Assembly (NCBI GenBank): GCA_026027325.1
Contig: JAMSLZ010000006.1
Location: forward strand, 1,054,001-1,118,000
Source of the DNA: Actinomucor elegans
Lineage: Eukaryota > Mucoromycota > Mucoromycetes > Mucorales > Mucoraceae
Length of the DNA: 64,000 nucleotides
Direction of reading: 5' to 3'
A program made the translations under genes and the position numbers. Shown here one piece after another: positions 43,834 through 47,874 of the stretch; positions within the stretch are counted from its first letter, which is position 1, and every line of letters starts with the position of its first letter. The notes under the pieces were generated by a model. It did not search any database and had not been told where the DNA came from. It saw nothing but the letters and a program-made list of their open reading frames with translations.

Positions 43834-44729
43834 ATGTCTCAACAAATCCCTACTTTAAAGCTATTACTTATCGGTAACTCTAACGTCGGTAAAAGTTCTC
43901 TGCTTTTACGTTTCACCGATGATACCTTCTTACCCCAGGAAGAAGTCTCTGCAACTATTGGTAAAGCAAACACTAATAATACGAGAATATAGAAACACTA
44001 AACACTACGTTTCGTTAGGTGTTGACTTTAAAGTGAGTATGATGGAGGTGAATGGTAAAATGTACAAGTTGACCATTTGGGTAAGTTCGGTTTCAAAAAG
44101 TAAAACTGGTTATACTGAAGTTTTGTGTGGCAGGATACTGCCGGGCAAGAACGATTCAGAACGCTGACTTCTTCATACTATCGTGGTGCACAAGGTGTTA
44201 TTCTAGGTAAGCCTATATTATGCTTATCCGTATTCGTACTAAAATATTTTGTATGATGAAACAGTATACGACGTCAGTAATAGAGACACTTTTGACGCAT
44301 TAAATACTTGGTGGAATGAAGTTAATACCTATTGTTCTAGTCCTGACGTGGTAAAGATGATTGTAGGAAATAAGGTCGACAAGGTAGGGTCTTGGCTTCT
44401 TTTGTTCTAGTGTATTTCGTCAGTATAAATAATCATAACAATAGGAATCGTCTCGAGTTGTTACTTACGAAGAAGGTGCTAACTTTGCCAGAAAACTCTC
44501 GACGCTATTTGTCGAATGTAGTGCTAAAACCAAAGTAGGTGTGAAACAGGCGTTTGAAGAACTTGTTGAAAAGGTAGGATATTGTCACCTTTAAGTATTT
44601 AATCTAATCACGAACGTTTAGATTATTGAAACACCTACATTATGGCAAAAAGACGCCGCCCCTAATTCTACTGTCAGAATGACTGCAGATGATAAAGAAC
44701 AGAGTGGCGGTGATTCTTGTGCCTGTTAG
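43834..44729 (+). CDS. RAB18: Rab18-type small GTPase, 205 aa
   Basis: Exons 43834-43960, 44019-44080, 44134-44206, 44265-44383, 44445-44573 and 44622-44729 join in phase. GTPase motifs: P-loop GNSNVGKSS, switch [24 protein letters not shown] (G3), NKVDK (G4), ECSAKT (G5). [20 protein letters not shown] and [12 protein letters not shown] are Rab18-like. The C terminus ends CAC, a double-cysteine geranylgeranylation motif. Rab18 acts at the ER, lipid droplets and ER-Golgi contacts. It is divergent from the LYR gene; the two starts are only about 185 bp apart and likely share a promoter. The mobile element begins 44 bp after the stop codon, so the Rab18 3' UTR may run into it. Confidence 0.93.
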
Positions 44730-44772
44730 ATTTAAAACTTCAAACTAATGGCTAAAAAAAACTATAACCTTT

Positions 44773-45011
44773 GAGAAACGTTTCTATTTGTTTTTAATCT
44801 AAAAATAATTTAGTCCTTTTTTTTATTTATTTAATTTTTTATATTTAAATATTTTATTATCTTCAAATCTTATAATATATTATTTATAACATATATTTAA
44901 AACAAAAAAATAGATAAAAAGGTTTTCTTTAATCCAAAAAATGAAGTGTTAGTCCTTAACAATGATATATTGATTTAGTTTTAATATTTTAAATGATTTA
45001 GGTCGTTTCTC
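44773..45011 (+). repeat. Left 239-bp terminal direct repeat of the element
   Basis: It starts GAGAAACGTTTC, which contains the perfect palindrome GAAACGTTTC, and ends GGTCGTTTCTC. Inner flank TTA, outer flank TTT. Same sequence and orientation as the right copy. Confidence 0.85.
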
Positions 45012-45345
45012 TTATCTTATGTCGAATATATCATTTCCTTAAAAAACAATAAAAATTGTATAATCAAGAATTAATTACAAATATTTATGTTTTTCTTTTC
45101 TTTTAATTGTTTTTTTTTACAGAAAATAATAAAAATATCTTAATATTGTTTCTATATTTTCTTTTTAAAACGATTAATGTTTGTGAGCTCAAATAATTGA
45201 TTAGTAATTAAGATTACGTGATCATTATTGTTACACAAACTTTAAAAAATTAATAAAAATAATAAAATATAAATCTTAATTTATATGTCTATTACTGCTT
45301 TACAGTTAATTATCAATGTCTTATATTTATTATTAATATTTAGAA

Positions 45346-46800
45346 TTATTTTAAAGTACTCCAATATAAATTTATTTTTTCTTTATCAGTAAAATCTACT
45401 TCTTTTACCCAAGAATTCTTATTTTTGTTATATCCTTTCCATTTTACAAAATAATCTATACTACTATCTGTATTAGTTCTATGTTTTATAATATATGATA
45501 CTTCATAAAAATCGCTATCGTTATCTTGTTCCATACATATGTCATTATCTATTTCAATTATATTATTATTTGAATTTTCATTATTATTATCAATTTTTAA
45601 TTTTAAAAACAAATCATTTTGAAAATTTCTAATTCTCTTTATGTTTTCCAATTTATATGAAACAGTATTAGATGTGATATTTATTTTTTCTTCTGGAAAG
45701 TCAAAGTTATCATCAATCCATCTTTTATGTAAAGTATTTGGTTCAATACTCCCTAATTCTATAAATTTTTTAATATTTAACAATAAACACGCTAATTTTA
45801 ATTGTAAATTATAAGTCTTAAGCTTAGTTACTCTAATATTTTTATGAGGGTCAAATCTTTTAAATGTTTTTGATATTTCTGAAAAAAATGTTTCTATCTT
45901 AGACCTATATCCTGATAATTGATCATTAAATGTAAGTTCATCAATATTTAAGTCTATATTCTTTTCTTTTTTAATAGGAAAAATAAAATTATCCTCATTA
46001 ATATTAAATTCTATATTATTATATTTGCTAATAACTGCATCTAATGTATTAGTATATAATCCATCAAAGCATAAACAATCACCATATTTAATAAATGTAT
46101 TTAATTTTACATTATTCATAAACATTACATCGTCATTATTGTTTTTACAGGGTAAACTGTCAGACACATATAAAACCATATTATTGTTATCTATTACAAT
46201 TTGTGTGTTTAATCCATTTTTTTTAAGTTTCCAACTGTATAGATCCTTTTTCTCAAAATCAATATTTTCATATGTAATTTTATTATGATGACCATCCATT
46301 ATTAGTGTACATTGTTTTAATAATTCAGGATTTTTTATATAACTTGTTAATAATCTTATATTTAAATTTGAAAAATAATTTTTATACATATCATTTATCC
46401 AATTATCTAATTCTTTTTCTTGTTTTATATATAACTTTTCATATATTCTGTAATAAGTTGTATCATTTATAAAATCATTCATCTGATGGGTTGAGTATCC
46501 TTCTATTAACTGATATAATACTAATAATATTTTATCTATATTATTATGGGGCCCAGGAAAATAATAATTATTACAAAAACTTGTTAAAAAAACATAAATC
46601 GGAATATATCCTAACTTTTGTATTAAAATTTCTTTAATTTTTTTAATATTTGATATATCAGTAATTACTGTTCTATGGTATTTTTTATTTTTTATTATTC
46701 CATAATCTTTTTTTAAAATATTTATCCAATAAGATTCATATATTTTCTTAAATTCACCTTCTAATAAACTTTGGATATTTGTATCTTTCATATTTATCAT
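45346..46800 (-). CDS. DDE transposase-like protein with C-terminal chromodomain, 484 aa
   Basis: Uninterrupted ORF; start ATG at 46800 (a second ATG three codons later is possible). An N-terminal helical region (residues about 85-125, NIDKILLVLYQLIEGYSTHQ) could be a helix-turn-helix. The catalytic core resembles the DDE_Tnp_4 (IS5/PIF-Harbinger) type: D169 in TLIMDGHHNK, YSWKLKKNGLNTQIVIDNNN, D246 in GDCLCFDGLY, and E303 in SGYRSKIETFFSEISKTFKRF. After an Asn/Asp-rich linker (about 403-430) a chromodomain occupies residues about 432-480 (YEVSYIIKHR ... DYFVKWKGYNKNKNSWVKE). The chromodomain probably reads histone methylation and may steer insertion (inference). Lys/Asn/Ile-rich codon use differs from host genes. 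Confidence 0.8.
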   Translation of the reverse strand: MINMKDTNIQSLLEGEFKKIYESYWINILKKDYGIIKNKKYHRTVITDISNIKKIKEILIQKLGYIPIYVFLTSFCNNYYFPGPHNNIDKILLVLYQLIEGYSTHQMNDFINDTTYYRIYEKLYIKQEKELDNWINDMYKNYFSNLNIRLLTSYIKNPELLKQCTLIMDGHHNKITYENIDFEKKDLYSWKLKKNGLNTQIVIDNNNMVLYVSDSLPCKNNNDDVMFMNNVKLNTFIKYGDCLCFDGLYTNTLDAVISKYNNIEFNINEDNFIFPIKKEKNIDLNIDELTFNDQLSGYRSKIETFFSEISKTFKRFDPHKNIRVTKLKTYNLQLKLACLLLNIKKFIELGSIEPNTLHKRWIDDNFDFPEEKINITSNTVSYKLENIKRIRNFQNDLFLKLKIDNNNENSNNNIIEIDNDICMEQDNDSDFYEVSYIIKHRTNTDSSIDYFVKWKGYNKNKNSWVKEVDFTDKEKINLYWSTLK

Positions 46801-46934
46801 AAATAATCATTTTATATATATGTCATAATTCAATTTTTATAAAAAAAGTATGTAGGATAATTTTATTTTGTTATCTAAAAAATACTGAACCCTCAGCGCA
46901 ATTAAGTGTGATGGTATTATATTATAGATTCTAA

Positions 46935-47173
46935 GAGAAACGTTTCTATTTGTTTTTAATCTAAAAATAATTTAGTCCTTTTTTTTATTTATTTAATTTT
47001 TTATATTTAAATATTTTATTATCTTCAAATCTTATAATATATTATTTATAACATATATTTAAAACAAAAAAATAGATAAAAAGGTTTTCTTTAATCCAAA
47101 AAATGAAGTGTTAGTCCTTAACAATGATATATTGATTTAGTTTTAATATTTTAAATGATTTAGGTCGTTTCTC
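46935..47173 (+). repeat. Right 239-bp terminal direct repeat of the element
   Basis: Same length, sequence and orientation as the left copy. Inner flank TAA, outer flank TTT. Together with the left inner TTA, the inner junctions form an inverted CGTTTCTCTTA / TAAGAGAAACG pair. Confidence 0.85.
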
Positions 47174-47513
47174 TTTATTATATTTTACTACCTATTATAA
47201 TATTAATCTTTTTTTCTCATATCAATACACTCATCTATAATTTATATATTATTATATAGCGAATTTTATTTCGAAATACAAGTCTATTTAGATTTTGCGT
47301 TATCCTCTTGATGTTTCCTCCCATCAGAAACATGTTTATGGAGACTTGGCAGCAGAAAAGAGTGTTAATTGCATATTGGGCAACTGGTCATTACTAAACT
47401 GGTTGTTCTGAGTGATCAAAACCTAAAAATGAATAGATATTGGATGTAGGAGTGCATAGTATGTAAGTATTAAAGGCATTAGGTATTGGCTGTGTTGTAG
47501 TCTAAATTGGGTG
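47174..47513. other. Spacer between two mobile elements
   Basis: AT-rich, with no gene or repeat recognised. Confidence 0.5.
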
Positions 47514-47874
47514 TAATAAAAGCAGCAACTCATTCTAATTATGAGAAAGTAATCAGACTCAAGCTTTGACCAAGATCGACCAAGAGATCTAGAGATGATT
47601 AGCTAATGAGAATATTTGTAATGTATATATTTTACAGTTAATTGCTGACTAGTATGATGTGCTACTTGTATTTCAGTTAGATAGATATCCTAACAGATAC
47701 AATAGCTTAGTCCTAACATGAAGTACATCATACTAGTCAGCAATTAACTGTAAAATATATACATTACAAATATTCTCATTAGCTAATCATCTCTAGATCT
47801 CTTGGTCGATCTTGGTCAAAGCTTGAGTCTGATTACTTTCTCATAATTAGAATGAGTTGTTGCATCTAATAAAA
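47514..47874. mobile_element. Fold-back (MITE-like) element with 139-bp inverted arms
   Basis: Arm 1 (47522-47660) and arm 2 (47725-47863) are reverse complements with a single mismatch (fourth base), separated by a 64-nt loop. The ends read GCAGCAACTC...GAGTTGTTGC. TAATAAAA occurs just outside both ends (47514-47521 and 47867-47874; three extra bases ATC on the right), which suggests an 8-bp target duplication. No coding capacity. Near-perfect arms imply recent origin; transcription would give a long hairpin. Related single ends occur at 25.9 and 34.2 kb. Confidence 0.8.

Follow-up and report, generated by a model that had tools for sequence, protein, structure and literature searches.

Long direct repeats at the two ends of a mobile element are usually taken as a sign of reverse transcription. 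Chromoviral LTR retrotransposons have long, identical repeats of this kind together with a DDE enzyme that carries a C-terminal chromodomain. LTR retrotransposons end in TG...CA and make target-site duplications of about 4-6 bp. Among DNA transposons, PIF/Harbinger elements have a DDE_Tnp_4 transposase, a 3-bp target duplication, short inverted ends and a second, Myb-like gene. IS5/Harbinger-like enzymes are generally regarded as cut-and-paste. In bacterial composite and IS26-type pseudo-composite transposons, a segment lies between two end-bearing units, and the unit also occurs alone.

The closest published design to the element described here is KolobokP, an unrelated DNA transposon reported from animals (Kojima and Bao 2022, PMC9587614). 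It consists of two long terminal direct repeats around an internal region (LTDR-INT-LTDR) and is a better comparison than LTR elements. According to its authors, no other DNA transposon resembles it; they bring up both recombination and a translocatable-unit-like circle. KolobokP has a Kolobok-type transposase with C/DxxH and zinc fingers. Most of its families also have a His-Me homing endonuclease, which is absent in some and is the suspect for upkeep of the direct ends (PMC9587614).

Elsewhere, the targets of PIF/Harbinger are given as TNA and ANT (PMC12477816), and chromodomains are placed in Gypsy/chromovirus and Maverick elements (PMC12477816, PMC10799480). An earlier note on the present DNA had suggested that its transposon type may be 'little-described'. 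This agrees with a search of open-licence PubMed Central text, in which no DDE transposon combining a chromodomain with long direct ends came up.

The element and its protein

The window is the whole stretch of DNA analysed, 64,000 nucleotides from Actinomucor elegans. It holds a 2401-bp element arranged as LTDR-INT-LTDR, with TTT on either side of the unit. Its parts are as follows.

44770..44772, no strand: left copy of the target-site duplication, TTT (sequence and match between the two copies)
44773..45011, minus strand: LTDR of 239 bp, downstream of the ORF in the coding direction, with ends GAGAAACG...CGTTTCTC
45012..46934, minus strand: INT, 1923 bp, with edges TTA (45012-45014) and TAA (46932-46934)
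45346..46800, minus strand: single-exon ORF of 484 aa, DDE transposase with C-terminal chromodomain (Pfam and fold)
45358..45507, minus strand: chromodomain, residues 432-481, with cage residues Y432, W454 and Y457 (HP1 alignment, conservation)
45775..46299, minus strand: DDE_Tnp_4 catalytic core, residues 168-342, with D169, D246 and E303
46935..47173, minus strand: second LTDR of 239 bp, upstream of the ORF in the coding direction, 100% identical to 44773-45011
47174..47176, no strand: right copy of the target-site duplication, TTT

The earlier note had placed two identical 239-bp direct repeats around the ORF, and its positions are exact to the base. Raw identity extends slightly further (44773-45013 against 46935-47175, 100% over 241 nt), but its final two bases fall outside the element, as the repeat ends in CGTTTCTC and TTT stands on both sides. 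The repeat proper is therefore 239 nt, a length set by comparing the window copy with other genome copies.

The element adjoins a Rab18-like gene, as had been claimed; the spacing is 43 nt beyond the stop codon (44727-44729), not 44. The coding end of this upstream gene matches Rab-18 (1x3s, E 8.4e-13), and the gene and the transposase gene are in convergent orientation.

A 156-nt inverted repeat lies 340 bp past the element (window 47514-47871). Its arms (47514-47669 and 47716-47871) are 96% complementary with 46 nt between them and could form a long hairpin. Among the genome matches listed, the only full-length ones are these two arms, with three partial matches at 73-78%.

The 484-aa frame is the sole ORF of at least 100 aa inside the element, and 334 bp and 134 bp of the INT lie outside it. 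Both domains that had been read in this frame score above their Pfam cutoffs: DDE_Tnp_4 at residues 168-342 (E 7.7e-10, 39 bits, cutoff 24.8) and Chromo at residues 432-481 (E 5.8e-9). DDE_Tnp_4 is matched in all 48 aligned members and a C-terminal chromodomain in 47 of them, and the proposed D169/D246/E303 triad is unchanged in 48/48. The chromodomain profile matches HP1 (1kna, E 2.3e-10), and the aromatic cage is kept. On HMM matches, fold and conservation, the DDE domain and the chromodomain are both intact. The NCBIfam model for bacterial IS5 (NF033581) gives 17.5 bits, well under its cutoff of 140.

The element shares with PIF/Harbinger the DDE_Tnp_4 catalytic domain, the length of the duplication and short inverted ends. 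It differs in its long direct repeats and chromodomain and in the absence of a second gene: the window element has no second ORF of at least 100 aa for a Myb-like DNA-binding protein, and scant INT space for one. Its target is also not restricted to TNA or ANT; the duplications have the 3-bp length of the TNA (TTA/TAA) type, but their sequence is mixed, so they are not of that type.

Two other DDE_Tnp_4 proteins in the genome (L001, C8:436928; L002, C8:190345) give far stronger matches, of ~110 bits. By eye, their frames stop without chromodomain-like sequence, and no flanking direct repeats were found within 3.5 kb. A relative of the present, eukaryote-type transposase, 38% identical and truncated near the contig end, is encoded on a contig of 3661 bp assigned to an uncultured Bacilli MAG (L056:2781-3611). 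It is probably foreign DNA in the Bacilli bin.

Copies, families and mobility

In the 36.5-Mb assembly, the 239-bp repeat has eight matches, which form four pairs around the same ORF. Since all four pairs also have 3-bp target duplications, the window pair is not a chance arrangement. The four elements are the window copy (L017, TTT), L018 (ACT), L019 (ACT) and L055 (TTT), and their INTs are 99.9-100% identical.

The genome contains at least 131 DDE_Tnp_4 matches among the best 150 of 157 candidates scored. Thirty-nine stretches (L017-L055), of 3.1-9.9 kb each, were picked for a transposase match or the 239-bp repeat. Four families, A-D, can be read end to end in them; these are given below with two further families.

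Family A: 484 aa; LTDR 239 bp; INT about 1923 bp; 4 elements; inverted ends GAGAAACG...CGTTTCTC, 8 bp (8/8)
Family B: 483 aa; LTDR about 401 bp; INT about 1635 bp; 15 elements; inverted ends GAGCAACGTTA / GAGCTACATTA
Family C: 478 aa; LTDR 221 bp; INT about 2062 bp; 19 elements; inverted ends GAAGAACATTTA / GATAAACATTTA
Family D: 422 aa; LTDR 288 bp; INT 1742 bp; 1 element; inverted ends GAGGAA
Family E: 504-aa frame; 232-bp LTDR in L007; inverted ends GACGGACATCT / GACGGATATCT
Family F: 471-aa frame; terminal units of 282 bp, each with perfect inverted ends of 67 bp (L007:2706-2987, L029:652-933, L006, L008)

INT length is almost constant inside each family, and LTDRs of different families are unlike in length and ends. 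The pairing in family E is by position only: in many copies a partial LTDR query matches on both sides of the ORF, at a spacing of ~2.1 kb. The terminal units of family F are mutually inverted by position in many of the copies listed (such as C8:292283/294259) and flipped in others (such as C8:43490), and the 282-bp unit occurs in either orientation, apparently also solo. The repeats are thus in direct orientation in A-D and, by position, in E. F is an exception, a relative in which long inverted and direct arrangements of the ends are mixed.

Of the complete elements, 39 in number with the dimer L041 taken once (4 A, 15 B, 19 C, 1 D), 37 are flanked by a direct duplication of 3 bp or longer. 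L028 and L050 have none, which counts against the best explanation given below. In a list of 38 elements, without L028, exact 3-mers abut the ends in 35; L050 fails, and L029 and L036 match at other lengths only. The duplicated sequences are ATA (9), AAA (8), ACT (4), AAT (4) and others (10), with strands pooled (n=35). The symmetrised target is C (40/70), three A/T-rich bases and G (40/70).

These duplications surround the LTDR pair and not each single repeat. When 100 nt from each side were joined and one duplication removed, an uninterrupted paralogous (empty) site was found for 12 of 38 elements among the sequences compared. Among the 12 are a copy of the window's family (L018), the dimer (L041) and a nested insertion, the D element inside a C element (L039). 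The window unit is a real transposon, inserted as a whole 2401-bp unit with a 3-bp target duplication. The earlier note had proposed that a chromodomain-bearing DDE enzyme of non-retroviral type and LTR-like ends form one mobile unit; the complete elements of four families, with their duplications and empty sites, the HMM matches and the fold support this. The copies that it had wished to see aligned define both the ends and the empty sites.

LTDRs also occur alone. Solo LTDRs with their own duplications lie at L024 and L028 (B with TCT, D with GAT), L034 (CAT) and L046 (TAA); L024 and L028 have a duplicated chromosome end in common. The earlier note had named repeats lying mostly alone as a point against it; in the window's family none of eight does. 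Among scored repeats of the sister families, by contrast, 22 of 40 in B and 7 of 40 in C have no partner at full-element spacing and no adjoining ORF (scores cover 40 of 109 candidates in B and 40 of 101 in C, where one partial row was left out). Among the 22 lone B repeats, C22:837785 and C22:839597 are separated by 1.8 kb and may both belong to a single element with a deletion. The B match C26:18205, scored as beside an ORF, is the solo of L034. One dimer was read. Neither an excision footprint nor a circle was seen among the elements observed, and this counts against the best explanation.

Repeat anatomy and rival explanations

Each LTDR of families A-E is bounded by short inverted ends of its own, which makes the design composite-like and not LTR-retroviral. 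The end-bearing unit is complete in itself, as in the plan of a composite element. The description 'LTR-like ends' therefore fits the long, near-identical direct repeats but not their own terminal inverted repeats; the 8-bp ends on each A repeat and the TTT/TTT around the element are additions to the earlier note. At its inner edges the INT reads TTA...TAA in three families (A, B and D) and TTG...TAA in family C.

Bacterial composite and IS26-type transposons (also discussed in PMC9587614) likewise have a mobile segment between two end-bearing units, with the unit also found solo. Here, however, the transposase is central and not in the flanking units, the genome is eukaryotic, and a chromatin reader is present. 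Likeness to KolobokP goes further. Both have LTDR-INT-LTDR with short inverted ends on each LTDR (in A-D here, and in E by position with a partial query), and solo LTDRs (L024/L028, L034, L046) and a multimer (L041) with target duplications. Both have palindrome-like INT edges, TATA..TATA in one quoted KolobokP family and TTA..TAA here. KolobokP LTDRs are about 450 or 660 bp, compared with 221-401 bp here, where there is one ORF with DDE_Tnp_4 and a chromodomain and the duplications are 3 bp. As judged from the Pfam DDE_Tnp_4 match in 48/48, the transposase is not of Kolobok type.

Paired LTDRs are very alike. In family B, four substitutions (columns 286, 328, 354 and 389) split the LTDRs into two subfamilies, and both LTDRs carry the same set in 15/15 elements. 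The alignment holds 35 LTDRs: 30 from the 15 elements, three solos, and two that are the same place in overlapping loci. In families A, B and C no substitution tells 5' from 3' LTDRs, and what differences there are otherwise consist of private changes and of gaps, often in homopolymers. Such likeness within elements is not readily obtained from independent decay of a unit that moves only whole. It may come from recombination between LTDRs or from copying both from one template, and the sequences fit either. The subfamily split is one event, so the case for homogenisation consists of one shared four-site change and the comparison between families.

The best explanation, to which a probability of roughly 0.6 can be given, is a composite-like LTDR-INT-LTDR DNA transposon with whole-unit insertion, LTDR recombination and chromodomain tethering. 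The DDE enzyme would pair the outermost ends, the left end of one LTDR and the right end of the other, cut there, and insert them at a C-WNW-G-like target, with breaks staggered by 3 bp. The chromodomain would read methylated histones and tether the transposase complex to such chromatin, favouring subtelomeric and repeat-rich sites. Homologous recombination between LTDRs (crossover, conversion and unequal exchange) would keep the pair alike and yield solo LTDRs, dimers and, as a by-product, LTDR-INT circles. The strand-transfer steps, the circles and the chromatin targeting are parts of this explanation that we infer. The inverted 282-bp units of family F count against a universal direct orientation.

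Three other explanations can be set against whole-unit transposition followed by recombination, and the strongest of them is that an LTDR-INT circle with one LTDR integrates replicatively. Both ends of that LTDR would be joined to the target, and replication would give LTDR-INT-LTDR with a 3-bp duplication. On this model each new insertion would start out with two identical LTDRs, like a new LTR retrotransposon; bacterial cointegrates and IS26-type translocatable units are comparable. Each LTDR does have both inverted ends, as a replicating unit needs, and paired LTDRs are concordant in family B. The INT edges (TTA..TAA or TTG..TAA) would form near-symmetrical flanks for the LTDR in a circle, with which dimers and solo LTDRs are also compatible. 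However, no circle was seen, recombination accounts for the same data, and IS5/Harbinger-like enzymes are generally held to be cut-and-paste. The data do not separate the two models, and we consider the circle a tentative and somewhat doubtful one. Kojima and Bao raised a circle of this kind, like a translocatable unit, for KolobokP (PMC9587614).

A degenerate LTR retrotransposon or chromovirus, its integrase misread as a transposase, would also have long identical direct ends and a C-terminal chromodomain on a DDE enzyme, which are the features shared with chromoviral elements. This is very improbable. The DDE family is a different one, DDE_Tnp_4 in 48/48, and apart from it only Chromo, DDE_Tnp_1 and Tudor-knot are listed for these members at E 0.001. 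Neither reverse transcriptase nor rve integrase is matched in the 48 aligned proteins (Pfam), so the HMM check for retroviral remnants named in the earlier note came back empty. The inverted repeat ends are GAGAAACG...CGTTTCTC instead of TG...CA, the duplications are 3 bp, and the non-ORF parts of the INT have no space for pol. Four DDE_Tnp_4-chromodomain elements explain all eight matches of the 239-bp repeat. Least credible of all is a chance flanking of a transposase gene by two independent miniature elements without common mobility. Each LTDR does resemble a small inverted-repeat element, and sister families do have solo LTDRs, but the duplications around the pair contradict this model, entire blocks are missing from the paralogous sites of 12 of 38 elements, and INT length is near-constant in each family.

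A bolder combination would see here a second, independent origin of LTR-like architecture among DNA transposons, with a chromatin reader. Replicative integration of a circle would regenerate the repeats without reverse transcription, and the chromodomain would lead the circle to silenced, subtelomeric chromatin. Taken as a whole, this is unlikely.

Upkeep of the ends and distribution of copies

Annotation pipelines may class elements of this kind as LTR or unknown. The elements also raise the question, open to testing, of the means by which a DDE transposon restores its long direct ends or keeps them homogeneous. No His-Me finger nuclease gene lies in the INT of the window element, with its single ORF of at least 100 aa. 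Since the same architecture occurs here without a homing endonuclease gene, the endonuclease seems not to be required. Copies are near-identical, which suggests recent activity in this genome: in 40 pairs of neighbouring LTDRs (4 A, 15 B, 20 C, 1 D), the two repeats are identical in 23, and in the others they agree at 99.0% or more over the part aligned. If the elements were recently active, the question of end regeneration could be put to a living system.

To our knowledge, histone-guided targeting is otherwise known from chromovirus integrases. The chromodomain makes the present element a candidate, on domain content, for such targeting by a DNA transposon. For distribution, 117 of the 131 DDE_Tnp_4 matches were used, on 15 contigs, and a chromodomain was not required in each. 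Ten of the 14 dropped matches lie on contigs without known length, and four are top-scoring ones resembling another group. A contig end is no more than 100 kb away for 51 of the 117, whereas random placement would give 12 (at most 25 in 2000 draws). The median nearest-neighbour distance is 13 kb, compared with 88 kb expected at random. This clustering fits chromatin-guided insertion, and equally fits counter-selection in genes or contigs ending at repeats; assembly may break at repeats and so mimic subtelomeric clustering. The window copy adjoins a gene, which counts against the targeting step.

Two contig starts, C10:1-7000 (L024) and C24:1-7200 (L028), have 5.2 kb in common at 99.7%, and this shared stretch stops at a B element's right end. 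Past the element they diverge, and the duplication is kept in C10 only (ATT/ATT, against ATT/TAG in C24). This pattern suggests exchange between chromosome ends via the B element. One diverged solo B LTDR has eight copies, on C10, C24, C27, C4, C22, C26 and C15, each adjoining the same D-like fragment, and six of the eight are within 13 kb of a contig start. The LTDR and the fragment form a block that is duplicated between contigs and is probably subtelomeric.
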